Assembly: GCF_002240355.1 (NCBI RefSeq)
Contig: NZ_CP016353.1
Span: 4,999,001 to 5,063,000 of the forward strand
Origin: Prauserella marina
GTDB taxonomy: Bacteria > Actinomycetota > Actinomycetes > Mycobacteriales > Pseudonocardiaceae
Direction: 5' to 3'
Length of the DNA: 64,000 nt
In this document: piece after piece, positions 30,540 through 53,645 of the stretch
Layout: each line of letters begins with the position of its first letter
Numbering within the stretch: the stretch's first letter is position 1
Made by a program: the position numbers and the translations under genes
The notes under the pieces: generated by a model
Told to the model about the DNA's origin: nothing
Seen by the model: only the letters and a program-made list of their open reading frames with translations
Databases searched by the model: none

Positions 30540-30555
30540 TGAAACACACGTTCCA
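30540..30555. promoter_or_regulatory. Operator-like motif, copy 2
   Basis: TGAAACACACGTTCCA, in the same leading context (ATAA) as copy 1 exactly 130 bases away. It lies 43 bases upstream of the NAD-epimerase start. The divergent promoter region therefore holds one copy near each gene. Confidence 0.5.
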
Positions 30556-30597
30556 TCTACTGCCGGTTCCAACGATGACCAGGAAGTGTGTTATCTC

Positions 30598-31665: not shown

Positions 31666-32009
31666 GCGACCTGTGGCCTGCCGAACCAAGGAGAATCCTG
31701 AGCAGCGGCAAGATGTGATCAACTCGGACGTGGTGAGGCCCGCTCGGGACACGAAATACCTCGCGCGCCGTGTCGCGACGCCCCAGGCATGAGCTTCCCA
31801 TTTCCAGCGGAGAGCTCCACGTCCGTTGGCCGCACAGACCGAACAACTTGATAGCCGCTCAAACGCGGTTCAGCTCACGCCTGTCGCTTCGATAGCTGCC
31901 GAACGTAATCTCGCTCAACCTGAAAAAGACCCCTCCTGAGCTGAAGCCGATGCCTGCTAGGACGGATACCAGGCAGAGTGCTCGCACAACCGGGAGGGGA
32001 ACTCAAACG
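31666..32009. other. Intergenic region before the NeuC-like gene
   Basis: About 340 bases with no supported gene. It ends with GGGAGGGG, the ribosome site of the NeuC-like gene. No repeat, transposase fragment or hairpin could be identified with confidence. Confidence 0.4.
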
Positions 32010-33170: not shown

Positions 33171-33189
33171 AAGTAATCCACAGTCCATC

Positions 33190-33999: not shown

Positions 34000-34015
34000 C
34001 GACAAACTCCGTCTC

Positions 34016-35044
34016 TCAAACGGCCAGAATCTCGGAACTATAATCATCGTCGATCCTGCGCGGATGATGGCACGCAACGTTCCTACCGTCGCCAATCCAT
34101 AGGTCGGGAGACACGGTGCACTCGTCGCCGGCCAACGCACAACGAGACTGAAATCGGCACCCCACCGGGAAGTCTTTCGGTTGTTCTACATGCCCCGGAA
34201 TGACCACCAGCTCTTCAGCGCCGTGCTCAAGACTTCTGCTTGCCGCCACAAGTCCAGTGGTATAGGGGTGGGTCGGGCGCGCGAAGAGTTCCCGCGTACC
34301 GCCTTCCTCCACCACCTGCCCTGCATACATGACAACTGTTCGGTCAGCCAGGCTCGAAACTAGAGCCAGATCGTGACTTATAAAGACTAAGGCAAATCCA
34401 CGTTCTACCTGCAAACGTCGAAGGAGAGCGACGATTTGCGCCTGAACGGTCAGGTCAAGTGCGGTCGTAGGTTCGTCCGCTATCACCAGCTCTGGCTCGC
34501 GAGCCAGAGCCAGAGCAATGAGAACTCGCTGTCGCTGTCCACCCGACAACTGGTACGGCTTGGCCTTCATGAACCGGGAGGTCTCGTCAAGTCCTACAGA
34601 AACCAGCAGTTCTTCCGGTTGTTGGCCGGCTCCCAATCGACACACTTGTCGAAGCTGTGCGCCGATGGACATCCCCGGATTCAGGCTTGTCAAAGCATCT
34701 TGGTAGATGATCCCGATCCGATCGCCGCGTAGGGAGCGGGCTGACTTCTTATCCAAGGCATGGACGTCCATGCCTTGGAACGTCACGTGTCCGTCAACGA
34801 CGGCAGTCGTCGGAAGCAAATTCGCTATACTCAGGCCAAGCAGTGATTTTCCACAACCCGACTCGCCGACCACCGCGACGCACTCGCCCCGATCAACCGT
34901 TAATCCCACTCGATCCAAGACAGGTACTCTTCCATATCGTTCAGGAAACCTAACCGACAAGTCGGAGATCCTGAGTATTGGCGTCTTTACCTTGTCCGCC
35001 AATGAGAGTTCGCGTCCCTGCGGCCTTGCACCTAAAATTGTCAT
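34016..35044 (-). CDS. Oligopeptide-type ABC transporter ATPase (DppD-like)
   Basis: A 342-residue ATPase with Walker A VVGESGCGKSLLGLSIANLL, signature QLSGGQRQRVLIALALAREP and Walker B LVIADEPTTALDLT. The C-terminal oligopeptide-transporter extension has the Cys-rich FPVGCRFQSRCALAGDEC, which in relatives can hold an iron-sulfur cluster. The ATG overlaps the end of the permease gene as ATGA, which fixes the start. Confidence 0.93.
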   Translation of the reverse strand: MTILGARPQGRELSLADKVKTPILRISDLSVRFPERYGRVPVLDRVGLTVDRGECVAVVGESGCGKSLLGLSIANLLPTTAVVDGHVTFQGMDVHALDKKSARSLRGDRIGIIYQDALTSLNPGMSIGAQLRQVCRLGAGQQPEELLVSVGLDETSRFMKAKPYQLSGGQRQRVLIALALAREPELVIADEPTTALDLTVQAQIVALLRRLQVERGFALVFISHDLALVSSLADRTVVMYAGQVVEEGGTRELFARPTHPYTTGLVAASRSLEHGAEELVVIPGHVEQPKDFPVGCRFQSRCALAGDECTVSPDLWIGDGRNVACHHPRRIDDDYSSEILAV

Positions 35045-35922
35045 CGTGACCTCAATCGTCGGCCAATAGCTTCCGAAAACCGATTGATAGTGAGCACTGT
35101 AGCCACTATGAATAAACCTGGCATAACCGTCACCCACCATGCGCCAGTATCAATAACGCCCTGACCATCATGAATGATATTTCCCCAAGACGGTGCTGGC
35201 GGCTTGATGCCGGCGCCAATAAAGGATAGTGCCGCTTCCGCAACAATAGCATCTGCCATCACAACGGTGAAATACACCAGTATCGGTCCTGCGGCGTTTG
35301 AGCCGATGTGATAGCCTACAAGCCTAACTCTTTTTGTTCCGATGAGCCGGGCAGCAGTGACATAGTCCTCGCCATATTCCGCGAACAACGCTGCTCTAAC
35401 CACTCTCGTCATCGATGGCGTGTATATTATCGCCAACACGATCACAGTTGTCGTCAGACTTGGTCCGATAGCGGCGGCGAGCACAATCGCGAGAAGCACT
35501 CCGGGGAAAGCGAGACCAACGTCTGTAAGTCGCATTATCGTTTCGCCAAGCCATTTCGGCCCGACCACGGATACGGCACCGAGCGCAGCGCCACACACTA
35601 GCGCGGCCACCGCTGACACGACTGCGACAAGAAGACTCAGGCGGGCTCCATATAGGATACGTACAGCAACATCTCGTCCCAATTGGTCAGTCCCGAACCA
35701 ATGATTCAAGCTGGGGCCCGCCAGCACGGCATTTGAGTCGGTAGCCGTAGGCGATTTTGTCGTGACCAAAGGAAGAACGACAAGAACGAAAGTGCTGATC
35801 AGCATTATACTAATCACCCAGCGGCCAAGAACGTCACCCGCAATCCATCGCCCGAGTCGGCCTATGGAGAAGCGACCTTCATACCGGGCACCGGTTCCAG
35901 TAGCGAGACTGTCAGCCGTCAT
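35041..35922 (-). CDS. ABC transporter permease (DppC-like)
   Basis: A 293-residue inner-membrane permease. An N-terminal helix (WVISIMLISTFVLVVLPLVT) is followed by the NHWFGTDQLGRDVAVRILYG block typical of DppC. The transport domain then has about five further helices and the EAA-loop-like stretch FAEYGEDYVTAARLIGTKRV. ATGA overlaps at both ends couple it to the other permease and the ATPase. Confidence 0.93.
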   Translation of the reverse strand: MTADSLATGTGARYEGRFSIGRLGRWIAGDVLGRWVISIMLISTFVLVVLPLVTTKSPTATDSNAVLAGPSLNHWFGTDQLGRDVAVRILYGARLSLLVAVVSAVAALVCGAALGAVSVVGPKWLGETIMRLTDVGLAFPGVLLAIVLAAAIGPSLTTTVIVLAIIYTPSMTRVVRAALFAEYGEDYVTAARLIGTKRVRLVGYHIGSNAAGPILVYFTVVMADAIVAEAALSFIGAGIKPPAPSWGNIIHDGQGVIDTGAWWVTVMPGLFIVATVLTINRFSEAIGRRLRSR

Positions 35923-36941
35923 CCGTTACTCGCCTCCACACTGCGGGGGTTCAAGAGCATCTGGACTATGTCGACCACAAGATTGACAACGACAAATGTT
36001 GTGGCACCCACGATAGCCACGCCGCGAACCACGCCAAGGTCGCTGTTATTCACAGCTGTGACAAGCAATGTACCCATTCCGGGAAGATTAAAGACGACCT
36101 CCACGAGTACCGCACCGGACATCAACGCACCCACGTAGACGCCAATGACCGTGATCGGCGTAATCAGCGCGTTCCTGAGAACATTCCGGAATATCACGAC
36201 GCGCCATGCGACTCCCGCCCCTATTGCTGTCCTGACATAGTCCTTCGCGAGTTCGTCAGCCATCGACGCCCGGACGACTCTCGTCAGCGCCGCGGTAAAC
36301 GGCAGGGAAAGCACGACAGCAGGCCCAATAATCGACGAGAACCAGTATGAGAACCCTTGTTGCATCGGAACATATCCACCCGACGGCAAGACGCCTAACG
36401 CAACAGCAAAGACCTGAATAAACAGGAGGCCAACCCAGAATGGAGGGGAGGCTTGCATAATAGCCGCTGCCGTGCCGATCGTTCGGTCCACCATACGCCC
36501 GTCAGAACGAGCGGCGATGGTACCAATCAGCAGCGAGACCGTCACAGCGATAACTGTCGCGAAAACAACCAGTTGCAGGGTCACCGGAAACGCCATGCCT
36601 ATCAGCGTGTTGACGGATTCAGAGTGCGCAACGGAGTCGCCGAGCCGAAAATGAACCAGTTCGGTGAGGAATCTCCAAAAACGGACGGGTAGGGGGTCAT
36701 TCAGTCCGTTCTCTTCCGCAAATCTGGCCCGGCTTTCAGGATCCGAGAAGAGCCCCATTTTTGCCATGGCCGGATCGTTTGGCGAGAGATCGACAGTCAC
36801 AAACACCAGAAACGAAACACCGAGGAGGATGACCGGAGCTATACACAGCCTTCGGGCTAGGAAACGAACACCGATTATACGGCTGCTGGATCGGCGTCGT
36901 TCGTCGGTTCCGACAGGCCGCGAAGAAGTAGATGCAGTCAC
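35919..36941 (-). CDS. ABC transporter permease (DppB-like)
   Basis: A 340-residue permease of the DppB type. The first transmembrane helix (FLARRLCIAPVILLGVSFLV) is followed by VDLSPNDPAMAK, a large periplasmic segment and the transport domain with the loop DELAKDYVRTAIGAGVAWRV. The GTG start has GGGAGG upstream. It begins 35 bases behind the substrate-binding protein gene. Its N-terminal 25 residues are Ser/Arg rich and cytoplasmic. Confidence 0.93.
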   Translation of the reverse strand: MTASTSSRPVGTDERRRSSSRIIGVRFLARRLCIAPVILLGVSFLVFVTVDLSPNDPAMAKMGLFSDPESRARFAEENGLNDPLPVRFWRFLTELVHFRLGDSVAHSESVNTLIGMAFPVTLQLVVFATVIAVTVSLLIGTIAARSDGRMVDRTIGTAAAIMQASPPFWVGLLFIQVFAVALGVLPSGGYVPMQQGFSYWFSSIIGPAVVLSLPFTAALTRVVRASMADELAKDYVRTAIGAGVAWRVVIFRNVLRNALITPITVIGVYVGALMSGAVLVEVVFNLPGMGTLLVTAVNNSDLGVVRGVAIVGATTFVVVNLVVDIVQMLLNPRSVEASNG

Positions 36942-36976
36942 GCGCTGACCTCCCGCTTGCCCTTTAACATGATGAT

Positions 36977-38602
36977 CTAGCTTTTCACCCGTACGTCATC
37001 AAGCGGGAATCCGATGTGTCCCAGTGGTCGGAAATTCTCGAGACTCGACGACCAGCCAGTGATTTGACGTTTCCATACGAGCGTCGCAAAGGGAACCTCG
37101 TCTTGCACACCCTCCTGCACCTTGGATAATGCGTTCTTTCGCTCTTCCTCATTTCCGGCAGCAACAGCCTCATCCAGATCGGCCTCTATCTGCCGGAGCT
37201 GCTCTGTATCCCAATGAGAGACTGTTCGAGGGAAAGCTCCATAGTATACGTATCGGAGATAGAATTCCGCCGTCGGATTGAAGATGTCAGAGGCGCCCGC
37301 TAGCACCACGGCGTGAAACTCCCCTTTGGACATTCGCGACGGTATGGCGCCCGGCGCACCTGGGACAATGCTTGGGTTGAGACCAAGTGACCGCAGGTTC
37401 TCCTCGATGATCGGCCCCTGTGATGCCACGTAGTCCGTCGACACGATTCCGATACTCATCGGCTCCCCGTCTGCGACACCAGCTTGGCGGAGCAATGACT
37501 TCGCATGCTGGGGATCGTAACGGTAAACTGTCGAAGGCCGCGTGTAGTCTGGATCATCGGGCTGTATCTGACCAGCCCACGCAGGTTCGGCCAGACCAAA
37601 GAAGGTCGACTTCACTATCGCATCCCGATCGATGCCGTAGAGAATAGCTTGACGGGCAAGTTTGTTATCGAAAGGAGCCTTCTTACAGTTGAAGCAGAAG
37701 AAGATGCGGAAGTCGCCTTTGACTGCTTCGACGCCGACAGCCGACTCCTCGGACAAGCTGTCCACCGATGCGCCAGGCACGTCCTGGATCACCTGAGCGT
37801 TACCTGTTTTCAGGCCGGCAACGCGCGCCGCCGAATCGGTAGCGACCTTGATCTCGACGTTCTGAAATTCAATGTGCCGCTGTCCGGAATATTTCCCGTA
37901 CTTCCTTAGATTGAGCTGTTGCCCGGATACCCCGGATACAACTTGGTATGGCCCAGTTCCGACGGGTGACATCTTGACCGCGTCCGAGGATGCGTTGACC
38001 GCCTTCCTCGACATCACTTTGACGAGCGACAGTCGTTGCACCAGCAGAGTGGTCGGATGCTGTAGACGCAGGGTCACCTCATAGGTCCCCGTGCTCCTCG
38101 CCTCCTGGATGAACGACAAGAACTGGCTGCGGAACCCCGGCGTGTTGGGATCCTTGATCCGTTCAATCGTAAAGACCACGTCATCGGCCGTGAGCGGGCT
38201 TCCATCATGGAAAGTCACGTCTTCCCGCAACGCGATGCGGTACGTTGTCGGGTCAACTTCCTCTGGCAGCGAAGCTGCCAGCTCCGGCGTGGGATCTCCG
38301 ACGGGCCGATACTGCCCAGTCCGGTACAACGATTCATAGATGAGATCATTTATCGCGATAGTGGTCGCGAAGACCGTGCTCGTCGGGTCCAAATTATCGA
38401 ATTGGTCTGACATCATCGCCGAGATTCTCTCGCTGTCGATCGCGCCCGCCGCGCCCTCCGGCGTCTCACTGGTGCACGCAGACAGAAGTCCTCCGAAGGT
38501 GAAAGCTCCCAAACCCAATCCGCCGAGCTGCAGCACACCTCGGCGAGTTAACGTGCCGTCAGCGGCCAACAGGGGAACGGTTCTCTGCGCACTACGGTCC
38601 AT
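36977..38602 (-). CDS. ABC transporter substrate-binding lipoprotein (family 5)
   Basis: A 541-residue extracellular solute-binding protein of the peptide/nickel/glycoside type. The signal sequence has a twin-arginine (LTRRGVLQLGGLGLGAF) and ends in the lipobox LLSAC, so it is a Tat-exported lipoprotein. Family blocks include YRIALREDVTFHDGSPLTAD and YGIDRDAIVKSTFFG. The ATG at 38602 follows AAAGG. It is the first gene of the importer operon. A copy of the TGAAAC-N4-ATTTCA motif lies about 50 bases upstream. The ligand is unknown; the neighbours suggest an acylated amino acid, peptide or sugar-like compound. Confidence 0.92.
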   Translation of the reverse strand: MDRSAQRTVPLLAADGTLTRRGVLQLGGLGLGAFTFGGLLSACTSETPEGAAGAIDSERISAMMSDQFDNLDPTSTVFATTIAINDLIYESLYRTGQYRPVGDPTPELAASLPEEVDPTTYRIALREDVTFHDGSPLTADDVVFTIERIKDPNTPGFRSQFLSFIQEARSTGTYEVTLRLQHPTTLLVQRLSLVKVMSRKAVNASSDAVKMSPVGTGPYQVVSGVSGQQLNLRKYGKYSGQRHIEFQNVEIKVATDSAARVAGLKTGNAQVIQDVPGASVDSLSEESAVGVEAVKGDFRIFFCFNCKKAPFDNKLARQAILYGIDRDAIVKSTFFGLAEPAWAGQIQPDDPDYTRPSTVYRYDPQHAKSLLRQAGVADGEPMSIGIVSTDYVASQGPIIEENLRSLGLNPSIVPGAPGAIPSRMSKGEFHAVVLAGASDIFNPTAEFYLRYVYYGAFPRTVSHWDTEQLRQIEADLDEAVAAGNEEERKNALSKVQEGVQDEVPFATLVWKRQITGWSSSLENFRPLGHIGFPLDDVRVKS

Positions 38603-38653
38603 CTCGTGACCTTTCACAAGTAAGCGCCACCCCTCCAGCGTCGCCACGGGGAC

Positions 38654-38669
38654 TGAAACGCCTATTTCA
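38654..38669. promoter_or_regulatory. Operator-like motif, copy 3
   Basis: TGAAACGCCTATTTCA, the same form (TGAAAC-N4-RTTYCA) as the copies at 30410 and 30540. It lies 52 bases upstream of the importer start codon. Confidence 0.5.
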
Positions 38670-39105
38670 TTGAAGACTATGAGTTGAAAACGCGAGAGTC
38701 AACACTTTGAAGACGAGGAGCATTGTGTCCGAGACCTGACCGGAGAGGTACTTTCCTCGCAGCAATTTGCTGAACGCAAACCGCCGTAGTGACGGCGTCG
38801 CGAGATCTTCCGACCGGGTGGCTCGGCCTCGACCAATGCCACCAAGAACGAAGGCGGATGCCCACCGGTAATTCATGACAATCTCACGCGTCTTCTCGTC
38901 GGCAAGACGGGAGACGCGCTGAACTCCGGTCGGCGCTGCGCATCAACCTTCCGAACACACGAAACTGTTAAACCTCGCCCTGACGACGCCTCGCCCCAGA
39001 GAAACAGATCCGAAAGCCGTGATAGCGCGGCCGTTTCTCGGCAGCTTGCTGAGAGTCGACGTGTGGAAGCTCGCCTGATGCCCACAATCGGCAAACCACG
39101 GTTTT

Positions 39106-39127
39106 AAGGTCGCACTATTGCGACCTT
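39106..39127. promoter_or_regulatory. 22-bp perfect inverted repeat
   Basis: AAGGTCGCA and TGCGACCTT flank CTAT. It lies 128 bases upstream of the SnoaL-like gene. It could be a repressor site or an RNA hairpin in the leader; there is no T run for a typical terminator. Confidence 0.45.
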
Positions 39128-39255
39128 GACGTGTCGCTAACACACTGCAACAATCAAACTTTCCCAGCTTGCCCGCGACCGCTACGGTAATCCGGGTCGC
39201 CAAAGTATCGACGATACGCCGCTATTGGCTCGATATCAGCAGAGAGGAAGCTCTT

Positions 39256-39711
39256 ATGGGCACGGAAACCGACAACCTGGCTCTCGCACGTAGGGCATTA
39301 TCCCACCTGGACACTAAATTCAGTCGCCGTGAATCAAATATTTTACAACCACTCTTCGATAGCTTTTCGGAAGACGCGGTGTTCTGGGTGCCTTGCGAAC
39401 CGAACACGCCACGCTATGGCGAACCGGCACGAGGGAAACAGCAGATAATTGATCTGTTCATGTCGGATCCCGACTTTTTCGAAGGCGTCGATATCGAACG
39501 CCCTGTTGAATTCATCGGCGATGGCGACAGAATCGTCGCCACCTTCGCACTTCGCTACACAATCCGCCGAACAGGTGCTTCATACCGCGGGAAAGAAGTA
39601 GCCCTCATCATGGACTTTAAGGACGGCCAGATTGTTCGAATGACCGAGATTCAAGACATGTCCGCCTGGTCGCAAGCATACCCGGCGGATGCGGGTATGC
39701 TTGCAAACTGA
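39256..39711 (+). CDS. SnoaL-like / NTF2-fold protein
   Basis: A 151-residue cone-barrel protein of the SnoaL/NTF2 superfamily: FSEDAVFWVPCEPNTPRYGE, RGKQQIIDLFMSDPDFFEGV, then DRIVATFALRYTIRRTG and ALIMDFKDGQIVRMTEIQD. Members isomerise, hydrate or bind small molecules. No catalytic pair is certain here. The ATG at 39256 follows AGAGGAAG. It is a single plus-strand gene between two minus-strand operons and has A/T-rich codons. Confidence 0.85.
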   Translation: MGTETDNLALARRALSHLDTKFSRRESNILQPLFDSFSEDAVFWVPCEPNTPRYGEPARGKQQIIDLFMSDPDFFEGVDIERPVEFIGDGDRIVATFALRYTIRRTGASYRGKEVALIMDFKDGQIVRMTEIQDMSAWSQAYPADAGMLAN

Positions 39712-39825
39712 GCCGCTGGACCCAGCATACGCTGCAGCGACACTATCTTGCGGTAGCATCTGGCTCCATGTTGCGGCCGCAAGATGTGGCGCTGAGCTTT
39801 AACCTCATATTCCTACACCACTTCC

Positions 39826-39843
39826 TGGAAACTGTGTTTTCCA
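39826..39843. repeat. Palindrome TGGAAAC-TGTG-TTTTCCA
   Basis: An 18-base imperfect palindrome, ten bases past the 3' end of the SDR gene. The half-sites resemble the TGAAAC-N4-RTTYCA motif, but its place between converging genes (ends at 39711 and 39853) suits a terminator equally well. Confidence 0.35.
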
Positions 39844-39852
39844 ATTAGTTCG

Positions 39853-40650
39853 TCACCACGCAGTCCAGCCGCCATCCACCACGAGCTCAGTTCCAGTAAT
39901 GAAGCTTGCGTCGTCCGACAGCAGAAAATGGACGGCATTGGCGACCTCTTCCGCGCGACCGAGTCGTCCAAGCGGCGTTGCTTCATCGAAGCTGGCCACT
40001 AATTGCGTGTCCATATCTCGAAAACGTTCAACCTGAATCATTCCGGGAGAGACTGTGTTCACGCGTATTCCCATCCCCGCAGCGGCAACTCCCAGTTCTC
40101 TTGACAGCATTCGCACCGCGCCTTTTCCTGCCGCATATGCGACGCCTCGCACGGGCCCGGCAGGTGTATCACCTGGTATCGCATCGCCATAGAACTTATT
40201 GTTCAGCGCCACGGAACCGTACACTGATGCAATATTGACTATCGCACCCGATCGGGCCTCACGCATTCGACTCATGGCTTCAAATGAAAGAAACGCTGTC
40301 GCTTCAACATTGAGTGCGAAGTTTGCTCGCCACTCCTCCAGACTCTGCGCAAGTAGCGGCGCAAGATAGGTATCTCCGGCATTGTTCACCAACGCATCCA
40401 GAGGAACAGCCATCCTATCGACGTAGGTCATGATGTGTGCTCTGCCGACTTCCGTGGTGACGTCCGCCTGCACAGGAACCGCATACCCCCCTTCGTTTTG
40501 GATGACCTCGACCGTTTCGTCAAGGCAGTCCTTGCGGCGGCCGATAATCAAGCATCCGTACCCGTGCTTGGCAAGACGAATCGCCGTGGCTTTTCCGATC
40601 CCTGTTCCACCGCCAGTGATGACGGCGAGCTTGTCGAACTTGGCGTTCAC
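39853..40650 (-). CDS. Short-chain dehydrogenase/reductase (copy A)
   Basis: A 265-residue classical SDR. It has AVITGGGTGIGKATAIRLAK (cofactor loop), NNAGDTYLAPL, IVNIASVYGSVAL (catalytic Ser), VAYAAGKGAVRMLSREL (Tyr-x3-Lys) and ITGTELVVDGGW. The GTG at 40650 overlaps the upstream oxidoreductase stop as GTGA with AGGCGAG before it, so a start eight codons earlier is less likely. It is paralogous to the SDR at 43000-43809; both have the unusual NI(A/G)SVYGS(V/L) block and a matching insertion after it. It probably oxidises a sugar or polyol hydroxyl (inference). Confidence 0.92.
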   Translation of the reverse strand: MNAKFDKLAVITGGGTGIGKATAIRLAKHGYGCLIIGRRKDCLDETVEVIQNEGGYAVPVQADVTTEVGRAHIMTYVDRMAVPLDALVNNAGDTYLAPLLAQSLEEWRANFALNVEATAFLSFEAMSRMREARSGAIVNIASVYGSVALNNKFYGDAIPGDTPAGPVRGVAYAAGKGAVRMLSRELGVAAAGMGIRVNTVSPGMIQVERFRDMDTQLVASFDEATPLGRLGRAEEVANAVHFLLSDDASFITGTELVVDGGWTAW

Positions 40651-41615
40651 GAGACTCGCCTGATCGAACTGCACTTTTCCAAAAGCGCGGCGCTGCGAAC
40701 GGCATCGACTGCTTCATCTGTCGTTATCGCATAGGGTCGGTCGTTGACGGTCGAGTTGATGAAATGATCTAACTCTGCCCGGAGTGCACCCTGAATACTT
40801 CCTCGCGCTTCGGGCCATGCCAGGCAGTCAGGATTATCCACCCGCCCAGGCGTGTACACAGCGACTCCGTCAGAGCTCCAAGCCGCTTGGGCCACCCCGG
40901 ATTCCCCATGCACCTTCAGGTCCCATCGCGGAGCCGCGCCTTCTGGTAGCGTCCATCCCGCTGCGAGGTGAAACCCCGCACCTGTGCTGAGAACGCCGGT
41001 CGCGGCAAACGCCGCGGCCCCTGACGCAGATTCGATCAATTGCGCACCGTCGACTTCGGCGATCACTCCGCCGGTCAGCCACTGTATGGTGTCGATATCA
41101 TGAATGGCCAAGTGCCACAGAGGGTTTGTCGTCGCCGACACTCGTTCACCGAGGCCTCGCGGTCCCCAGGTCGAAGTCGTAAGCATCACCGGCGCCCCGA
41201 GATCGCCCGATTCAACTGCGTCGGCCACCGCCAGGTACCGCGGGTAGAAGCGCGTCAAGTGTGCCGTCATCAGGCCGACCCGGCGCCTCTCTGCCAATTC
41301 AACCATCGACATGGCATCGTCGACCGTCGTGGCAAGCGGCTTTTCGACAAGTACCGATATGCCGGCTTCGATGGCCATCGAAGCCGGCACGCGGTGGGCC
41401 GAGTCCGGAGTAGCGATTATGGCAACATCGGGTTTGAGTTCTGCCAGGGCTCGCGATAGATCAGTGAATCCTGGGGCGCCGAGATCGGCGGCGACAACTC
41501 CGACTCGGGCAATGTCGAGATCAACAACGCCACAGAGTGTAGCGGTGTCCGAATGCTTGACCGCTTTCGCGTGCAGGCCGCCCATGAGCCCTGCACCGAC
41601 TACGAGGACTCTCAT
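40647..41615 (-). CDS. Gfo/Idh/MocA-family oxidoreductase
   Basis: A 322-residue NAD(P)-dependent sugar or inositol dehydrogenase type protein. The N-terminal Rossmann fold starts MRVLVVGAGLMGGLHAKAVK, and ISVLVEKPLATTVDDA gives the EKP motif. The C-terminal half contains LWHLAIHDIDTIQWLTGG, with the His-x3-Asp catalytic pattern. The ATG at 41615 is chosen over an upstream ATG at 41636 because the Rossmann strand begins directly there. GTGA overlap couples it to the SDR downstream. Confidence 0.9.
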   Translation of the reverse strand: MRVLVVGAGLMGGLHAKAVKHSDTATLCGVVDLDIARVGVVAADLGAPGFTDLSRALAELKPDVAIIATPDSAHRVPASMAIEAGISVLVEKPLATTVDDAMSMVELAERRRVGLMTAHLTRFYPRYLAVADAVESGDLGAPVMLTTSTWGPRGLGERVSATTNPLWHLAIHDIDTIQWLTGGVIAEVDGAQLIESASGAAAFAATGVLSTGAGFHLAAGWTLPEGAAPRWDLKVHGESGVAQAAWSSDGVAVYTPGRVDNPDCLAWPEARGSIQGALRAELDHFINSTVNDRPYAITTDEAVDAVRSAALLEKCSSIRRVS

Positions 41616-41836
41616 TGTCGGTGTCCCACCTTCCATGCGAACTAGCGCGCTGCCCGCCCGTATCCTCGGCGGGGCGCGATTCTGGTCAATTCGGAACGAT
41701 GGTTTCACTGTAACCAACGCATCGATCACATGGAAGACCGCGTCACGTCAGAACGCCCCGTGGGTGAGCTGTCGTGATCCGGGAAGACCGCGCCGCCAGG
41801 CACGGTGATGTATTCGCAGAGATAAGGGACGCGCTC

Positions 41837-42913
41837 TCACCCCCCGGAAAGCCGGGAAAGCATACTCGCCGATCCTTCATCGGTCTTGACGAAGTCCCGG
41901 GCTTCTGTCGGGTTGGCGGCCGCCGTCCTCACCATGTCCGCATAGCTGTACATCGGCCGATATCCGATCCACCTGCGCGCAGCGCAGATATCGATTTCGA
42001 GGCGCCACGTCAGGGGCAACCTGACAACGTGCCATGGCACATCGAACGCGTGCGCTACGACCGAAGCACCTGTCAACGAACCGACCGGTTCGGCGGCCGC
42101 GATGTTGAATGCCCGACCGAGCGCACCTCGCTGAGTCAGTGCCTTCCACACCGCCTCCGCCGCGTCGCGGACATCGACCACACTTAGTGTCCATTGGCCT
42201 TCCGGGCCTGTCAGCGCCACAGCCGCATCGGCTGGGGCATTGCCGACCGCATCATCGAACACGGCAGTAAGTTGCGGCTGGTCACGGAACAATGGCCACA
42301 GGGTACTCCGGCGCCCCTGGTTCTGTTGTGTCTTCAGCCAACCGCGCAAGAAACTCAACCTATATATCTCAGGTGATTCCTCGGGGCTGAGCACAGTGCC
42401 AAATCGTAAAACCGAATATGGTATATCGAACTGATGAGCACGATTTTGCAGAACTATTTCGCTCATCAACTTACTGGTACCGTAGTAGTCGGCCGGATTC
42501 TGCGCCAAATCTTCGGTCAAGGGTGTTTTCGGAGGGTCCGCGGGTCGGTACGTAGAATCGGTACTGGCCAACACGAATCTTTCGATCCGCCCGCCAGAAC
42601 CCAATACTCCCTCCAGCAGGCGGACCGTGCCCAGCACGTTGACGTCGTGGAAATCCTCCACAGACACATTGTCAAGCACCATCAAGGCGGCGAGGTGCAC
42701 GACGTGCGTCACACCATCACACGCCCGGTTAATTGCTACCTGATCACGCAGGTCGGCTTCCGCCACTTCTACACCCGTGAGACGTTCCAGTTTTGACAGC
42801 CTTCGAGTTCCCGGAGTGACCATGGCTCTCACTGCCACCCCCCGATCGGCCAACTTCTTGACCACATTCGCACCGACCCGGCCCGTGGCGCCAGTCACGA
42901 GAACTTTCACCAC
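41837..42913 (-). CDS. NAD-dependent epimerase/dehydratase family protein (copy B)
   Basis: A 358-residue extended SDR, paralogue of the gene at 30598. It shows LVTGATGRVGANVVKKLADR, THVVHLAALMVL, LASTDSTYRPADPP and the YxxxK in PADYYGTSKLMSEIVLQN. The C-terminal blocks VVDVRDAAEAVWKAL and AFNIAAAEPVGSLTGA also align with copy A. Two adjacent GTG codons follow GGAGGAG; the first is used here. It lies between an SDR gene and a Gfo/Idh gene, so it may act in the same sugar pathway. Confidence 0.88.
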   Translation of the reverse strand: MVKVLVTGATGRVGANVVKKLADRGVAVRAMVTPGTRRLSKLERLTGVEVAEADLRDQVAINRACDGVTHVVHLAALMVLDNVSVEDFHDVNVLGTVRLLEGVLGSGGRIERFVLASTDSTYRPADPPKTPLTEDLAQNPADYYGTSKLMSEIVLQNRAHQFDIPYSVLRFGTVLSPEESPEIYRLSFLRGWLKTQQNQGRRSTLWPLFRDQPQLTAVFDDAVGNAPADAAVALTGPEGQWTLSVVDVRDAAEAVWKALTQRGALGRAFNIAAAEPVGSLTGASVVAHAFDVPWHVVRLPLTWRLEIDICAARRWIGYRPMYSYADMVRTAAANPTEARDFVKTDEGSASMLSRLSGG

Positions 42914-42961
42914 TCACTCCTCCACTCAGGGCTGAAAGGATCGCAGCCATCTATTCGAAAT

Positions 42962-42980
42962 GAGGAAATTCTCTTTCCTC
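42962..42980 (-). terminator. Hairpin downstream of the SDR gene
   Basis: GAGGAAA and TTTCCTC flank TTCTC, 20 bases past the SDR stop and about 50 upstream of the epimerase gene. A weak terminator or attenuator between the sugar operon and the genes after it. Confidence 0.4.
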
Positions 42981-42999
42981 TTTAAGTCGATGATTCGCG

Positions 43000-43809
43000 C
43001 TACCAGATCGACCATCCTCCGTCGACGGTCCACTCCGCGCCCGTGACGAACGACGCCTCTTCACAGGCCAGAAAAGCAACCACCGCCGCGATGTCCTCCG
43101 GTCTGCCAAGCCTCCCGAGAGGCGTCGCCCCACAAAAACGATCGATCAATTCGGGAGCGACGGGACGTTCCGGCGTCTTGATCATTCCCGGTGCGACGGT
43201 GTTGACCCGGACGTTCCAGCGTCCGCCCACGACGGCGAGGTCTCTTGTCAGCGCGGCCAACCCGCCTTTGGAGGCGTGGTAGGCGGGCACTCGCACGGGT
43301 CCGGACGCTCCGTCCCGCGGATACACGTCCTCGGGGTAGAAACGACTGTCGAGACCCAGCGAGCCGTACACCGAGCCGATGTTGATCACCGAACCGCCGC
43401 CGAACTCCTTCATGCGCTCGATCCCCCACGCGGAGAGCACAGCGACGGCAACGAGGTTCGTCTCCAGTTCGGCCATCCACACGTCACTCGACTGGCCGAA
43501 CACGGGCATCGGAGTCGAGCGGGCCGCGCAGTTGACGACGAGACCGAGAGGTGTCCCGTGGTCCTCGGCCAGCCCGGTCAGCGTCGATCTGCCTTCCTCC
43601 GTCGAGATATCGCAGACGACGGAGCGGACAGCCCCCTCCGGAGCACCGATGACCGCCTCGGTCTTCTCCAGGTCCTCGGCTTCGAGGCCGGCGATGAGGC
43701 ATCGCCATCCACGCTCGACAAGCGTCCTGACGATCGCGTGTCCGATCCCTCGTCCGCCTCCCGTCACCACAGCCAATCGGGCGGTCGCACCAGGCCGAGT
43801 TTCATCCAT
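43000..43809 (-). CDS. Short-chain dehydrogenase/reductase (copy B)
   Basis: A 269-residue classical [57 protein letters not shown] (catalytic Ser), VPAYHASKGGLAALTRDLAV (Tyr-x3-Lys) and SFVTGAEWTVDGGWSIW. It is paralogous to the gene at 39853, sharing an insertion between the Ser and the Tyr. The ATG follows GAGGAGA and lies 20 bases behind the LegC-like gene, so it is probably the last gene of the sugar-nucleotide operon. The normal NNAG motif reads NCAA. Confidence 0.91.
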   Translation of the reverse strand: MDETRPGATARLAVVTGGGRGIGHAIVRTLVERGWRCLIAGLEAEDLEKTEAVIGAPEGAVRSVVCDISTEEGRSTLTGLAEDHGTPLGLVVNCAARSTPMPVFGQSSDVWMAELETNLVAVAVLSAWGIERMKEFGGGSVINIGSVYGSLGLDSRFYPEDVYPRDGASGPVRVPAYHASKGGLAALTRDLAVVGGRWNVRVNTVAPGMIKTPERPVAPELIDRFCGATPLGRLGRPEDIAAVVAFLACEEASFVTGAEWTVDGGWSIW

Positions 43810-46654: not shown

Positions 46655-49066
46655 CTACCTCGTACGCATTCGCCAGTTGCTCCGCGACCTCGGCATGATG
46701 TCGTCGCCCTCGTTGTCGTGCGCGAGGTGGACCGAGAACAGATTCACCGTCGCGGGCTCGGTCAGCGCATGGGAGAGCACGTCCGCGTCGACGGTCCTGA
46801 TCGCCTCGTGCCGGATCGTCGTGCCTCCCCACACCTGTTGCCATGGGGGTTCGACGAACGAGAGAAGCGACATCTGGGCGTCGGCCGTCGCCGCGTGCTG
46901 TAGTTCGCGGTAAGACCGGATGATGGAGAAGGCGCCGTTGAGCAGGAAGAAGATGCTCACGTTCGCGGTGATCCGGCCGGATTCGAACCGCAGTTGCTGC
47001 GCGAGGCTCGGCAGGAACGAGGGGACCAACCTCGCCGCCCCGTCTCCGATGAACCCGAGAATGTTCTCCGGTCCGCTCAACGCCACCGTGGGGATCGCGA
47101 GCAGCGCGTCGCCCATCAAGGCTCTTCCGTACCAGCCCGAGAACCCTGGTCCTGTGCGCGGCAGGTTGCGAACCGCGGAGATACCGCCTCGGCCCACGTC
47201 GTAGAACCCGGTGTAGGAATAACCTTGCCGCTCCACCAGGTCTCCGATGACGGAACGCAGCCTCGTGAAGAAGTGCTCGTGACTCATCGGTATCGAGGGA
47301 ACCCTCGCCAACGGGTCGCCCTCGGCTCTTCGCGCCCGTTCCGCCGCTGCCGCACGATGCCGGAGGACATGTGGATCGGGGTTGATTCGCTCCGAGAGGC
47401 GCCGCAGGAACGACGACAGTCGTTCGGTGACGGCGACATCGGTGAACGGCGAGACATGACCGGGAGTGTCGGTGAGCTGGACCACCCTGACCTCGTCGTG
47501 CAAAGCTTTGTCACTGAACGGGGTCGAGAGATCGGGGACCTTGCTCTTGAGGAAGAAGAGGGCGTGCTCGTCATAGGGCAGCAGGCGCCCGTCCGGATGC
47601 AGCAGCCGCCACACCGAGGTCGAGCAGCCGTACACGCTCATGGTTCCGAGGAACTCGTCGACGATGCCGCCGCGGTGGTATCTGGCCACGGTTCCCGGTC
47701 TTGCCAGCGAATCGACCAGCGCGATGCCGGTTCGTGCCGCGAGGTCGTAGACGAGTTCCCTTTCCTCCTCGTCGAGTTTTCCGCATTGGCAGACGATGAC
47801 GCTCTGCTGGTTGTTGAGGATGTCGGCGACGGTGTCGACAGTGTCCTCGTCGACGGTGGGAGTCGAGACCTCCCGCCCTGCCGGCAGGTGGACCTCACCG
47901 CCGGTATGCCGCAACACTGAAGGCGAGGCGAGCAGCACGACAGGCCCTCGTCGCTCGTGATACGCGGCGAACGCCGAAGCAAGGTCCTCGTCGATGCGGT
48001 CGGGATCGGTCAGGTGAAAACACGGAACACCGTAGGCGTCGAGGACGGCCTTGCCGTTCTCGTGATCGTGAACGGTGCCCTGGAAAGGCTGCCAGGTGCC
48101 GGGTTCGGTCTCCCCGAACACGATGAAACCACGTGACTGGGAATCACGCAGGTTCGCCAACGTGCCCCTGAGTTCATCCACCATCCCGGCGGTGACGACG
48201 ATCAGATACGGAGCGTCGTACAGTTGCCAACGCGCGAGGGCACCGCAGGCGAGGCTGTGCTCGCTGGGTCCGCGAAGCACCGGGTTTCCGCTCGCTCTCG
48301 CGATGGAAGCGGCATCCTGGATGAGCTTCGAGACGATGGAGCCGGTGAAGAAATGGAGCGCCCACGCGGTGCCTGCTTGCGCCGTGAGAAATCCGGTCAG
48401 CGCGGCCGCCATGGTGGCGGGCGGATCGCTTTCGGTCACCATCGCCTTCGGGTTGACATGCCGCGCCTGCACCAGGTCGGTGAACGAGCAGATTGTCTCC
48501 GCCGCGAGTACCCATTGCTCCGCCGGTGTCTCCCTGGCATTGCCGACGGTGCGCGCGTAGACGCGATCAACGCCTAGCTTGTCGTAAACGACAACGGAGT
48601 ACGGCGAAACACTGACTCCGAGCCGGTCCCGAATTCCGCGCACGACCTCCTGAACCCGGTCGAGCCGTTCCTCCGGGTCCGCACCCCGCACGGTCCTCGT
48701 CGCCTCGACGAGGAACAACACGGTGGGCCCCGAGGTCCATGGCCTCCGGCCTTCTTCCCGTGCCTCCTCGGGCGGCGGGACGACCCGGGCCAGTCGTGCC
48801 TCGAGTTCTTCGAGGCGGGGCGCCTCGATCACCTCGATACCGGTCTCAGGGGAAAGGTTGTCGTCGAGGAAGGCACTCGCGGATTCGGTGAGTTCGTGGC
48901 ACACATCCGGCCACGAATCGCCGGGCGGTGAGGGTGTGACCGCCGCACCGCCGACCCGCACCTGTCTGCCCAGTGCGGCGAGCGCGCTCTCGACGGTGTC
49001 GAGGAAGAACGAACTGTCGCTGACGGCCGCGACCAGAACGGGCCGGTCGCGTCGGGGAGCTTGCAT
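46655..49066 (-). CDS. Large unusual thiamine-diphosphate-dependent enzyme
   Basis: About 803 residues. The first 190 or so are not recognised (VAAVSDSSFFLDTVESALAA...). A ThDP pyrimidine-binding-like domain follows, with GPSEHSLACGALARWQLYDA, whose Glu would activate the cofactor. A middle domain comes next (CQCGKLDEEERELVYDLAAR). The C-terminal ThDP-diphosphate domain has NILGFIGDGAARLVPSFLPS and FFLLNGAFSIIRSYREL, a GDG...N motif with NG in place of NN. It resembles acetolactate synthase and 2-oxoacid decarboxylases only in outline, and I see no clear FAD site. By context it could add a two-carbon or acyl unit to a sugar intermediate. ATG at 49066 (behind GAGG) or 49078. Confidence 0.75.
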   Translation of the reverse strand: MQAPRRDRPVLVAAVSDSSFFLDTVESALAALGRQVRVGGAAVTPSPPGDSWPDVCHELTESASAFLDDNLSPETGIEVIEAPRLEELEARLARVVPPPEEAREEGRRPWTSGPTVLFLVEATRTVRGADPEERLDRVQEVVRGIRDRLGVSVSPYSVVVYDKLGVDRVYARTVGNARETPAEQWVLAAETICSFTDLVQARHVNPKAMVTESDPPATMAAALTGFLTAQAGTAWALHFFTGSIVSKLIQDAASIARASGNPVLRGPSEHSLACGALARWQLYDAPYLIVVTAGMVDELRGTLANLRDSQSRGFIVFGETEPGTWQPFQGTVHDHENGKAVLDAYGVPCFHLTDPDRIDEDLASAFAAYHERRGPVVLLASPSVLRHTGGEVHLPAGREVSTPTVDEDTVDTVADILNNQQSVIVCQCGKLDEEERELVYDLAARTGIALVDSLARPGTVARYHRGGIVDEFLGTMSVYGCSTSVWRLLHPDGRLLPYDEHALFFLKSKVPDLSTPFSDKALHDEVRVVQLTDTPGHVSPFTDVAVTERLSSFLRRLSERINPDPHVLRHRAAAAERARRAEGDPLARVPSIPMSHEHFFTRLRSVIGDLVERQGYSYTGFYDVGRGGISAVRNLPRTGPGFSGWYGRALMGDALLAIPTVALSGPENILGFIGDGAARLVPSFLPSLAQQLRFESGRITANVSIFFLLNGAFSIIRSYRELQHAATADAQMSLLSFVEPPWQQVWGGTTIRHEAIRTVDADVLSHALTEPATVNLFSVHLAHDNEGDDIMPRSRSNWRMRTR

Positions 49067-49094
49067 CGATGTCCTCATCTCTCGAAGCGATCGG

Positions 49095-49961: not shown

Positions 49962-50971
49962 GCCGACCACCGCAGCAGGCACGAGCCGATCGACATGCCA
50001 CCGCCGAACGCTGCGAGCAGTACCAGTTCACCGTCGGCGAGTTCGCCCGCGCGGTTCGCCTCGTCGAGAGTCACCGGTATGCAGGCACTACCGACGTTGC
50101 CGTAGCGTTCGAGCGATCGATGCGTTGTCGCGTTGGGCATCGCCAGCCTCTCCACGAGCTCGGCGAGCAGATTTCCGTTGGGCTGATGCGGGACGATGTG
50201 GTCGATCTGCTCACCCGTGGCCCCCGCCTGGTGCAGCAGATCCGCCACCGCGAGTGGCACCTGGTCGAGTACGAATTCGGAGACCCGCCTTCCGCGCATC
50301 GTGAAGTAGTGGGCCCCCGCGTCCACGGTCTCGTGCGACGTCGGCAGCCTGCTGCCCCCCGCGGCGACCTTGATCAGTTCGTTGGCGTCACCGCGCATGC
50401 GCAGGCGAGCGTCGACGATTCCGTACGACATCGGTGCGGGGCCGAGCACGACGGCACCCGCGCCGTCACCGAGCAGGACCGAGGTCGCCCTGTCGTCGTA
50501 GTTGAGGATGCGCGAGTAGACGTCGGCTCCGATGACGAGCGCATACGTTCCCGGATTCATGAGCAGCAGCGCTCTGGTCAGTTCGAGTCCGTACACGAAT
50601 CCGCTGCACACGACGTTGATGTCGAAGCAGGCCGCGTCGTAGGCGCCGAGCTCGTGTTGCACCAGCGCGGAGGTTGGCGGCTGCGGCGAGTCCGGAGTGG
50701 ACGTCGCGACGACCAGGTAGCTCAATCGATCCGCTCCGATTCCGGCCTGGTCGAGAGCCGATTCGGCGGCCAGAGTCGCGAGATCCGACGTCGCCTCAGT
50801 CGGAGCCGCGTAGCGCCTGGCCCGGATCCGGGTCTTGCGCTCGATCCATTCCGCCGTCACTCCCGCTCTCTCGGCGACCCAATCGTTGGACACCTCGTCC
50901 TTCGGCAGGTACGAACCGGTTCCGAGAACCCCGACGGACTGCCTGGTGTTCCTGTTCTCCTGTGTACTCAC
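49958..50971 (-). CDS. 3-oxoacyl-ACP synthase III (KAS III) family protein
   Basis: A 337-residue FabH-type condensing enzyme with the full triad: Cys in FDINVVCSGFVYGLELTRAL, His in HIVPHQPNGNLL and Asn in RYGNVGSACIPVTL. It begins SVGVLGTGSYLPKDEVSNDW. Such enzymes join an acyl-CoA to malonyl-ACP, and some relatives in secondary metabolism act instead as acyltransferases, including onto sugars. The GTG at 50971 overlaps the nucleotidyltransferase stop, and GAGAGGAC lies upstream. Its presence inside a sugar-nucleotide operon, with no other fatty-acid gene except the hydroxyacyl dehydrogenase, is unusual. Confidence 0.92.
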   Translation of the reverse strand: MSTQENRNTRQSVGVLGTGSYLPKDEVSNDWVAERAGVTAEWIERKTRIRARRYAAPTEATSDLATLAAESALDQAGIGADRLSYLVVATSTPDSPQPPTSALVQHELGAYDAACFDINVVCSGFVYGLELTRALLLMNPGTYALVIGADVYSRILNYDDRATSVLLGDGAGAVVLGPAPMSYGIVDARLRMRGDANELIKVAAGGSRLPTSHETVDAGAHYFTMRGRRVSEFVLDQVPLAVADLLHQAGATGEQIDHIVPHQPNGNLLAELVERLAMPNATTHRSLERYGNVGSACIPVTLDEANRAGELADGELVLLAAFGGGMSIGSCLLRWSA

Positions 50972-52014
50972 ACCTGTCCTCTCGCTTGAGCCAATTCGTT
51001 GGGCCTGCCGATGTCCTGCCAGTGCTCGCGGAGTTTCCACAGCCCGACGGGCAGCCCCTCGGAAAGGCAGTCGTCGAACAGCGCTGTTATCGGGAACAGC
51101 TCGCCCGCGGGGATACGTGCGAGCAGACGTGGCTCCATGACGTAGATCCCCGCGTTGACCGGCCAGGACGAGGTCGGTTTTTCGACCATCCTGACCAGAT
51201 TTCCCGACTCGGATTCCAGTACTCCGAACGGAACCTGGTGCCGGTATTCGGTCATGGCGATGGTCGCGACGACCTCCCGGCTCGCGTGGGCATCCATCAG
51301 TTCGCCGACCGCGAACTCGGTGACCAGATCTCCGTTCATGACGAGCAACGGTTCGGTCGGTTCGTAGCCGAGTTCGCCGATCAGCCGCAGCGGACCGCCG
51401 GTTCCGAGCGGCAGCTCCGGATCCTCTCTGAGGTATTCGATCTCGCAGCCGAATCGTGCTCCGTCGTCGAAATGCTCTTCGATGATCTTGCTCAGATAGT
51501 TCACGGAAAGGAAGATCTTCTCGATTCCGGAGCCAACGAGATGGAGAACCAACCGTTCCAGAATTGGCCTGCCCGCGACCGGGAGCATCGGTTTCGGAAT
51601 GTGATCGGTCAGCGCACCGAGCCGCGTTCCCCTGCCGCCGGCCATGATCACGGCCCAGTTCTTCAGCCGGTTGATCCCCGACAGTTCCCGCTCGGCGTGA
51701 ACTCCGACAATCCTGCCATGTTCGTCGACAACCGGAATCTCGGACAGTTTGAGCGCGCGCATCAGATCCAGCACCTCGGCCCGCCCCTCCGTGGACTTGA
51801 CGGAGACGACCGGGGAATGCATCAGCGGGTAAGCCGGCGCACCGAGCGGGGTGCCTCGAAGCAGCGCGCGCGTGATGTCGACCTGGCTGACCGATCCGAG
51901 CAACCTGCCGCCGGCGTCGGCGACGAAGACACGTTCGACGCATTGCCCGTCAATTGTGGAAAGCGCTGATCTGACGGACGCTTCCCGACCGATCAGCAGG
52001 TCAGCGAAATGCAT
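50968..52014 (-). CDS. PtmE-like nucleotidyltransferase with paired CBS domains
   Basis: A 348-residue protein. Two CBS repeats (about residues 1-115; RVFVADAGGRLLGSVSQVDI, IPVVDEHGRIVGVHAERELS) precede a sugar-phosphate nucleotidyltransferase domain with IMAGGRGTRLGALTDHIPKP, MLPVAGRPILERLV and LLVMNGDLVTEF. This architecture is that of Campylobacter PtmE, which activates glucosamine-1-phosphate with GTP for legionaminic acid synthesis. It is the first gene of the operon, with AAAGGAGA before the ATG. It is divergent from the fused XRE regulator. Nucleotide and sugar specificity are inferred. Confidence 0.9.
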   Translation of the reverse strand: MHFADLLIGREASVRSALSTIDGQCVERVFVADAGGRLLGSVSQVDITRALLRGTPLGAPAYPLMHSPVVSVKSTEGRAEVLDLMRALKLSEIPVVDEHGRIVGVHAERELSGINRLKNWAVIMAGGRGTRLGALTDHIPKPMLPVAGRPILERLVLHLVGSGIEKIFLSVNYLSKIIEEHFDDGARFGCEIEYLREDPELPLGTGGPLRLIGELGYEPTEPLLVMNGDLVTEFAVGELMDAHASREVVATIAMTEYRHQVPFGVLESESGNLVRMVEKPTSSWPVNAGIYVMEPRLLARIPAGELFPITALFDDCLSEGLPVGLWKLREHWQDIGRPNELAQARGQV

Positions 52015-52259
52015 TGTTTCTCCTTTTGGCCGGCACCCGGGCCGTCGGCACGCTCGACGACAAGCCTTCGCCAGCGGCGGCGACAGCGGCCAGGGGTCGA
52101 GTTCAAGCCCATTGGCGGATTGACGAGATCGACCCGATCCAGAGCGGATTCGGTGCCCTGGTTCGCGAAATCGACAGCAACAGGGCGCGAAACGGACTGA
52201 CCGCGGTGTGCCGGACCGCTAGCGTCAAAGGTACGAAGCCCACGAAGGAGCGAGCGGTC

Positions 52260-53645
52260 ATGGAAGGCGTATCCGACGAACCGATCTCACAACTCATCCG
52301 ATCCGCGCGAAGGCGACGGCAACTCAGCCAGTACACCCTCGCGAGAGAACTCTCGACGGTGTCGGGCAAACCGACCGTCACCCGTGACCTTGTGGCGAGG
52401 TGGGAACGTGGACACCAGATCCCCCGTTACGGTTCACGGCAATGGCTTTCGGTCGTGCTCGGCCTTTCCCAGGAACGGCTCGACGCCGCCGCGGCGGCCT
52501 CACGGCGCAGGACGCGGCTCGGTCACGCGGTCGTCACCAACAACGCCCCCGTCAAGCCGGGGCCTGCCCGGCGCGCACAGGGCACTCCCGCTTTGCTTCC
52601 CGTTTTCCGCTCACGGGTGCAGGCGGGCATCCTGGCGGCGGCGCTGCTGAATCCGCACCGGTCGTTCAGCCTTTCCGAACTCGCCGAGCACGCGGGTGGC
52701 TCGCTTGCCTCCGTCGACAAGGAAAGCAGGTTGCTTGAGGTAGCGGGCATCCTCACCAGCAGGACGGAGGGAACGATCCGGCTCATGCGGGCAGCCGATA
52801 CGGGCCCGATGGTGCGGCCACTGACCGAACTCATCAAGACGAGCTACGGAGTACCGCAGATCATCGGCGAGGAGTTCGGCAGGTTGGCAGGGGTGGCGAG
52901 GATTCTGCTCGGCGGTGTGTGGGCCGAGCGGTTCGCGGGCATTCCCGGCCCCGCGCCGGACAGCATCGAGGTCCTGATCATCACCGCGCGGGCGGAGGAT
53001 GTCGACCAAGGCACTGTCGGTGCCGCCGCTCGGCGGGCACAAGGCAGACTCCGGTGTCCCGTGCACGTGTCGGTACGCCCGCTCGACCCCAGGCTCGACT
53101 ACCTCCAGATCCCCCACCAGCGAGCCAACCAGCCGGTGGTCGAGGTGGCACCGGTGCGACCGAAGCACCCCGGCGCGACGGGAGCACCGTGGCCGGACGG
53201 TCGCCAGGCGGTGACGAAGCTCGTGAGCGCTGGGCAGCTTGAGATGGTCGGCGGCCCGGCCACCGACCACCGGCCGTTCCTTCGGCTCGCCGAACTGCAC
53301 ATCGGGGCCGCGGAACAGCTCATCGACACCTCACCGCCTTCGGCGTTCCTGCTGCTGTCGGAATCGGCACAGCTCATCGCCTCGGCGCTGCTTGTGCACC
53401 AGGGGCTGCGCCCGGCGACGGGGGCGGCGGAACACGTACCCGGGGACGTGGTCACCGCTCAGTTCGGACACCAGTTCTCGCAGGTCGAGTTGCTCAGGCA
53501 ACGGTCGAAGGAGTTGCGCAATCCCATCAGCAGGGACAGCCACGTGACCAACGAAGAGGTGAAGACCTACCTGGCGACGACGAGGTCCTTACTCTCCGTC
53601 TCGCACAATGTCATCGGCTCGGTCGGCACGTTCAGCGTGCAGTGA
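52260..53645 (+). CDS. XRE regulator fused to winged-helix and degenerate MNT/HEPN-like domains
   Basis: A 461-residue protein. An XRE helix-turn-helix (residues 1-75) contains QLIRSARRRRQLSQYTLARE and RDLVARWERGHQIPR. A winged helix follows (about 110-185; SFSLSELAEHAGGSLASVDK). Next is a segment shaped like an MNT nucleotidyltransferase, WAERFAGIPGPAPDSIEVLI, where the usual Asp-x-Asp is lost (SIEV). A C-terminal all-helical part resembles a HEPN domain (AEQLIDTSPPSAFLLLSESA, ELRNPISRDSHVTNEE). MNT/HEPN assignment is by pattern, not by search. The ATG lies nine bases behind GGAG. It is divergent from the sugar-nucleotide operon and may regulate it. Confidence 0.75.
   Translation: MEGVSDEPISQLIRSARRRRQLSQYTLARELSTVSGKPTVTRDLVARWERGHQIPRYGSRQWLSVVLGLSQERLDAAAAASRRRTRLGHAVVTNNAPVKPGPARRAQGTPALLPVFRSRVQAGILAAALLNPHRSFSLSELAEHAGGSLASVDKESRLLEVAGILTSRTEGTIRLMRAADTGPMVRPLTELIKTSYGVPQIIGEEFGRLAGVARILLGGVWAERFAGIPGPAPDSIEVLIITARAEDVDQGTVGAAARRAQGRLRCPVHVSVRPLDPRLDYLQIPHQRANQPVVEVAPVRPKHPGATGAPWPDGRQAVTKLVSAGQLEMVGGPATDHRPFLRLAELHIGAAEQLIDTSPPSAFLLLSESAQLIASALLVHQGLRPATGAAEHVPGDVVTAQFGHQFSQVELLRQRSKELRNPISRDSHVTNEEVKTYLATTRSLLSVSHNVIGSVGTFSVQ

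Follow-up and report, generated by a model that had tools for sequence, protein, structure and literature searches.

The window, the whole 64,000-nucleotide stretch of Prauserella marina DNA that was analysed, encodes a 461-residue protein in which two DNA-binding domains are joined to catalytically dead MNT and HEPN domains. A direct-repeat operator precedes its gene and recurs before a short paralog of its first domain elsewhere in the window. The features referred to below are as follows.

52260-53645, forward strand: XRE-wHTH-pseudoMNT-pseudoHEPN regulator gene (461-residue translation of the open reading frame, aligned with orthologs)
52284-52511, forward strand: XRE helix-turn-helix, residues 9-84 (PF01381 in 18/18 members; 3jxb_C by VIA-align)
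52614-52790, forward strand: winged helix, residues 119-177 (PF12840 in 9/18; 3pqk by VIA-align)
52851-53147, forward strand: pseudo-MNT, residues 198-296, with the former GSx..DxD at 219-237 changed to GV..SxE (36 fused and 31 stand-alone proteins aligned)
53253-53615, forward strand: pseudo-HEPN, residues 332-452 (2hsb, Z 15.1; residue counts)
53496-53543, forward strand: residues 413-428, with the lost RNxxEY position (416-421) and a new R425-D426 motif (residue counts)
52162-52199, forward strand: operator upstream of the fused gene, a direct repeat of two 14-bp units with a spacing of 22 bp (upstream-region comparison, matrix, spacing test)
52220-52225, forward strand: TAGCGT, a -10-like box 20 bp past the operator (promoter scan)
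52090-52104, no strand assigned: second conserved element, CCAGGGGTCGAGTTC, linked to the divergent sugar-nucleotide gene
50968-52014, reverse strand: divergent CBS and NTP_transferase gene (PF00571, PF00483)
15905-16207, reverse strand: short XRE-only paralog, with an uncertain start (16207, or 16195 with GTG; XRE domains 48% identical)
16229-16265, reverse strand: second copy of the direct-repeat operator, upstream of the short XRE gene, with TATGGT 20 bp after it at 16208-16203 (fused-promoter matrix)
14134-15843, reverse strand: B12 radical SAM tryptophan 2-C-methyltransferase, downstream of the short XRE gene (TIGR04428, 937 bits, cutoff 500)
18232-19602, reverse strand: tryptophanase/beta-eliminating lyase-like gene (PF01212, NF009709)

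At full identity the regulator gene is single in the P. marina genome; a full-length paralog with 35% identity lies 557 kb away, and the short XRE protein is encoded within the window. This paralog (L019:1423-2790) has the same four-domain layout and likewise lacks the DxD motif. Seventeen full-length orthologs (53-80% identity) from Prauserella, Qaidamihabitans, Amycolatopsis and Jiangella were aligned end to end (alignment A1), and in the window protein as in all 17 orthologs the domains form one chain, not the two separate adjacent genes of HEPN/MNT toxin-antitoxin systems. The A1 profile was searched against 396 phylum and 394 class genomes. The fused set numbers 36 distinct proteins: the window protein, its 17 orthologs and 18 proteins from whole genomes, including the paralog, with duplicates removed. 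All 36 formed a single clade in a FastTree phylogeny of the wHTH-MNT region (local support 0.768; root arbitrary), whose hosts belong to Pseudonocardiaceae and to a second family, presumably Jiangellaceae.

Searched alone against Pfam and NCBIfam, the window protein returned weak XRE and ArsR matches and nothing else, and phmmer against PDB sequences found one weak ArsR chain and no other match; the MNT and HEPN parts were detected via relatives alone. The first domain is a lambda-repressor-like helix-turn-helix: PF01381 matched all 18 family members at E<=1 (best 3.2e-5; the window protein by itself under the Pfam cutoff), and its model superposed on 3jxb_C over 67 residues (Z 11.2, 1.7 Å; VIA-align). 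The winged helix was matched by PF12840 in nine and by PF12802 in two of 18 members and superposed on 3pqk over 85 residues (Z 10.0, 3.4 Å; VIA-align). An AlphaFold model of the full chain was of moderate confidence (pLDDT 73.4, pTM 0.38), as was one of residues 186-461 (pLDDT 75, pTM 0.54), with the expected elements present.

The MNT segment of the window protein had no Pfam match by itself, but aligned unambiguously with stand-alone wHTH-MNT proteins that keep GS..DxD. The fused profile picked up these proteins with E down to 1.5e-41, and among them Polbeta was matched by 8/23 and NTP_transf_2 by 6/23. Structure was less telling: Foldseek against the PDB gave no match at E<=0.001 with either the whole chain or the MNT-HEPN piece, the MNT antitoxin 8xeo_B (E 0.12, TMt 0.55) was level with unrelated alpha-beta folds, and the stand-alone MNT alignment found weak MNT chains at best among PDB sequences (2rff, E 0.015; 5yep, E 0.28). 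Since the fold search was weak, the MNT assignment is grounded in sequence. Ser220, Asp235 and Asp237 are each kept in 31/31 stand-alone MNT proteins, and in the fused set Asp235 and Asp237 are found in none of 36 and Ser220 in one, so that the loss of the catalytic Asp pair claimed by the original prediction is borne out and the GSx10DxD active site is gone. Residue 237 is instead Glu or Gln (16 proteins each), His (two), Val or Leu (one each). Around the former pocket, W221 and G227 are invariant, and G219 (34/36) and R224 (35/36) nearly so.

For the C-terminal part, the model superposed on the HEPN protein 2hsb over 117 residues (Z 15.1, 2.4 Å; VIA-align), and HepT entries scored lower (7ae9: Z 10.0, 122 residues, 3.3 Å). 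ANT(4') and AadA were among the two-domain structural matches of the MNT-HEPN part. The fold comparison that had been proposed for both segments thus upheld HEPN, but not MNT on structure alone. PF05168 matched 14/17 stand-alone HEPN homologs (best E 2.2e-6), while their alignment found no significant HEPN chain among PDB sequences. The profile search of each segment recovered PF01381 and PF12840 and, through the stand-alone homologs, Polbeta/NTP_transf_2 and PF05168, and the proposed single chain of XRE, winged helix, MNT and HEPN is confirmed by profiles, stand-alone relatives and the 17 orthologs.

Stand-alone HEPNs retain D..R, GGH and RNxxEY, and these positions are gone in the fused proteins. 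Comparing 23 stand-alone entries, some of them fragments, with the 36 fused proteins, D368 was found in 21/23 versus 0/36, R371 in 22/23 versus 2/36, R416 in 23/23 versus 0/36, and Y421, the AMP-acceptor Tyr, in 21/23 versus 1/36; the His of GGH (column 391) was present in 19/23 and fell outside the eight commonest residues of the fused set. The window protein reads SKELRN at 416-421, without the Arg, and neither Rx4-6H nor RNxxEY supplies a catalytic Arg. The string RNPISRDSH had originally been put forward as the HEPN motif. As an Rx4-6H motif it was rejected: residue 428 is His in 14/36, Arg in 19, Gln in two and Thr in one, and the homologous Arg position is 416. Within the same string, however, Arg425-Asp426 has been gained in the former active-site loop of 35/36 fused proteins. 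We regard the four-domain architecture and the loss of both enzyme sites as secure, with hardly any room for doubt.

The chain might still be a working single-chain toxin-antitoxin protein, or an enzyme nucleotidylating RNA or protein from a relocated active site. A remodelled MNT site is conceivable because residue 234 is Asp or Glu in 32/36, though 16/36 have Gln at 237, where its partner would lie, and HEPN toxins lacking the Rx4-6H motif can remain toxic (PMC3710099). With Asp235 and Asp237 absent throughout, and the Asp, Arg, His, Arg and Tyr positions of HEPN lost, we consider a working enzyme very improbable and treat both halves as dead.

The nearest relatives of the fused proteins are two-gene wHTH-MNT/HEPN operons. 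Elsewhere these two parts are encoded by adjacent genes, wHTH-MNT first, whose reading frames touch or overlap in many loci, and several genomes with a fused protein, G565 and G500 among them, carry such a pair as well. The actinobacterial wHTH-MNT and HEPN pairs have RNxxEY instead of Rx4-6H (L053, L051, L091-L099 and L106-L119) and are apparently an undescribed branch of HEPN/MNT modules.

A head-to-tail repeat was found upstream of all 18 fused genes compared. In the window it reads TTCGCGAAATCGAC-N8-GGCGCGAAACGGAC and is the sole match in its own genome at up to three mismatches. The spacing of its units is 22 bp for the window and the four relatives closest to it, and 21 bp for the other 13. 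In a consensus-free test (at least 9/12 identities), spacing 21 was recovered in 12/18 and spacing 22 in 5/18 promoters, compared with 0-3/18 for other spacings from 15 to 30. A matrix was built from 16 fused-promoter sites, leaving out two near-duplicates. Across the 64 kb, the site before the fused gene scored 46.2, followed by 10.6 at 16229-16265 on the reverse strand and by 10.4 for the first site read in a shifted register, and five 64-kb Markov sequences peaked at -1.3 to 7.4. Apart from that overlap, no further operator copies scoring near the two sites were found in the window.

To score whole loci, the best match in the 200 bp preceding the XRE domain was ranked against other windows of the same locus, using a larger pseudocount. 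The matrix gave p<0.02 in 16/17 fused-gene promoters, missing L104; these fused loci are partly in the training set (the window, L100, which matches L016, and L101, which matches L015), and the short XRE genes lie outside it. The same matrix, made from fused promoters alone, gave p<0.02 in 16/21 short-XRE promoters, missing L104, L105, L128, L130 and L135 (L105 and L139 overlap, and L105 alone was counted). Three loci that have the tryptophan methyltransferase and neither XRE protein (L136-L138) scored no higher than 3.5, 9.4 and 15.1 at any position of their 8.5-9 kb. The operator is thus very probably common to fused and short-XRE promoters. L100 and L102, two loci of the Jiangella type, have it in the space between the short XRE gene and the methyltransferase gene, which are divergent there.

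A TANNNT box begins 20-22 nt after the repeat in 17/17 fused promoters of the first set, which includes the window, and in 17/17 of L001-L017, with two Jiangella loci in both sets. In short-XRE promoters, a strict TANNNT at 20 was found in 6/17, and most of the others by eye carry a degenerate box one base further on. By eye, the fused promoters lack a good -35 box, and the operator borders on the -35 position or overlaps it, which suggests that it stands in for the -35 region, as with activators leaning on RNA polymerase. The same overlap could mean that the protein represses its own gene like most XRE antitoxins (HigA and others rank near the top of the structural matches to the first domain), and that the constant distance between operator and -10 box is no more than a consequence of blocking the -35 region. 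The sites of repressors can vary in position, however, and an activator is a better match for both the strictly kept distance of 20-22 bp, seen in every fused promoter scanned, and the missing -35 box, so that we judge repression unlikely. Because the distance between repeat and -10 box is fixed, activation is the likeliest polarity, one that we hold with some confidence.

The short XRE gene heads a tryptophan 2-methyltransferase operon, and the recognition region RDxVARWERG is common to the fused regulator and the short XRE paralog in most loci. Among 60 relatives, the regulator and the methyltransferase occurred together in five genomes, the regulator alone in one (an 86% complete genome) and the enzyme alone in three (p 5.9e-5); among the 394 class genomes the corresponding numbers were 16, two and zero (p 1.3e-26). 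These p-values are inflated because the genomes are related, most of the class set belonging to one family. An assignment of the regulator to the sugar-nucleotide operon alone was rejected as too narrow, since the tryptophan methyltransferase co-occurs with it. The methyltransferase, short XRE, AraC and tryptophanase-like genes (14134-19602) stay together across two actinobacterial families. The product of this gene group is possibly of a 2-methylindole type; no literature linking tryptophan 2-C-methyltransferase with tryptophanase was found.

On its other side, the regulator faces the CBS and nucleotidyltransferase gene, which we take to be PtmE-like. The original prediction had placed the regulator divergent from a sugar-nucleotide operon, and this arrangement holds in the window and in 13/17 orthologous loci; in the remaining four the divergent gene is absent next door. 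The second conserved element, CCAGGGGNCGNNTT, is intergenic in the window and the same 13 loci and missing there from the four loci without the divergent gene; CCAGGGGTCGAGTTC has a single exact match in the genome. The element may serve as promoter or leader for the divergent gene, or as a site for the winged helix. The locus at 28000-52014 has conserved ends and swapped cargo: the gene sets behind the divergent nucleotidyltransferase differ between orthologous loci, with NeuC-like, LegB/LegC-like, threonine synthase-like and oligopeptide transporter-like genes as examples. Amid the sugar-nucleotide genes of the window, 46655-49078 encodes an 807-residue protein that matches NCBIfam PigD (prodigiosin MAP pathway) with 662 bits, under the cutoff of 950. 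Third-position GC of the open reading frames called in 27200-43000 is about 0.66-0.71; because this lies below the flanks (about 0.8), it suggests an imported segment.

These observations suggest that an entire selfish module of two genes has become the regulator of a specialised metabolism locus. The two genes of a wHTH-MNT/HEPN module would have merged to encode a single chain, which acquired an XRE domain at its N terminus and lost the activity of both enzymes. The XRE domain would read the head-to-tail repeat, whose units lie 21-22 bp or two helical turns apart abutting the -35 region, at two targets, the protein's own promoter and that of the short XRE paralog and tryptophan 2-methyltransferase; control of the divergent gene may be added to these. 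With nearly the same recognition region and no effector part, the short XRE protein would share or compete for the operator. The dead MNT-HEPN part would serve oligomerisation and probably offer an effector-binding cleft. We consider it probable that a domesticated, enzymatically dead MNT-HEPN pair is the effector or oligomerisation part of an XRE activator, with ligand and polarity both inferred.

Sensing in particular is an evenly balanced matter. The original prediction saw a repurposed toxin-antitoxin module used as a sensor; fusion, inactivity of both halves, origin from an MNT-HEPN pair and a role in gene control all stand, but dimerisation alone fits as well as a sensor does. The MNT-HEPN part could then be a scaffold without an effector site, holding two XRE domains and two winged helices on the repeat. 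HepT and MntA do oligomerise, and MntA D39E/D41E, which has lost AMP transfer and keeps binding, still forms the hetero-octamer (PMC7641770); the missing catalytic residues of both fused halves fit a scaffold too. Against this, the near-invariant pocket residues and the new Arg-Asp in the former active-site loop exceed what a scaffold needs, and we find a purely structural role rather doubtful. A more specific proposal, speculative and improbable as a whole, makes the pair the receptor half of the activator: the former AMP-transfer cleft with its Arg-Asp would bind a metabolite of the locus (a 2-methyltryptophan or 2-methylindole product, or a nucleotide sugar), coupling the tryptophan-methylation operon to the sugar-nucleotide genes, and the receptor-less XRE paralog on the same operator would set the threshold.

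With its DNA-binding domains and a conserved operator, the fused protein probably works like a one-component regulator derived from a HEPN/MNT toxin-antitoxin system and is not itself a member of that class. Like the regulator as proposed here, phage lambda CII-type activators are helix-turn-helix proteins that bind a direct repeat at the -35 region, with units about one helical turn apart versus two in the present operator. The two-gene wHTH-MNT and HEPN operons have the same order as the fused chain, but they lack XRE, consist of separate genes and keep DxD and RNxxEY. HepT/MntA systems such as SO_3166/SO_3165 have homologous folds with MNT before HEPN, and the matching DxD moves AMP to a Tyr near the HEPN motif (PMC7641770). 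In contrast, the fused proteins are single chains with two DNA-binding domains set in a metabolic locus, and they lack DxD in 36/36, the HEPN Arg in 36/36 and the Tyr in 35/36.

GlnD/GlnE, kanamycin nucleotidyltransferase, ANT and AadA also combine an MNT-like and an inactive HEPN-like domain in a single chain (PMC3710099), but those enzymes keep an active nucleotidyltransferase, whereas the regulator has a dead one and DNA-binding domains. MtlR-type repressors likewise use an inactive HEPN in gene control and are described as non-DNA-binding (PMC3710099), unlike the present chain with its XRE and winged helix. The XRE-wHTH-pseudoMNT-pseudoHEPN layout was not found described in titles and abstract openings of the literature on HEPN/MNT fusions, HEPN regulators, pseudoenzymes and domesticated toxin-antitoxin systems. 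Domestication of HEPN-MNT modules has been proposed for enzymes and inactive HEPN repressors (PMC3710099). The present case goes beyond those proposals: neither enzyme is still active, and the pair is coupled to an XRE domain and a winged helix, with a conserved operator besides. The path from a mobile toxin-antitoxin pair to a dedicated regulator can therefore be traced residue by residue, and the case offers testable predictions in the operator, in the short XRE paralog with its copy of that operator and in the tryptophan 2-methylation genes as the core of a candidate regulon.
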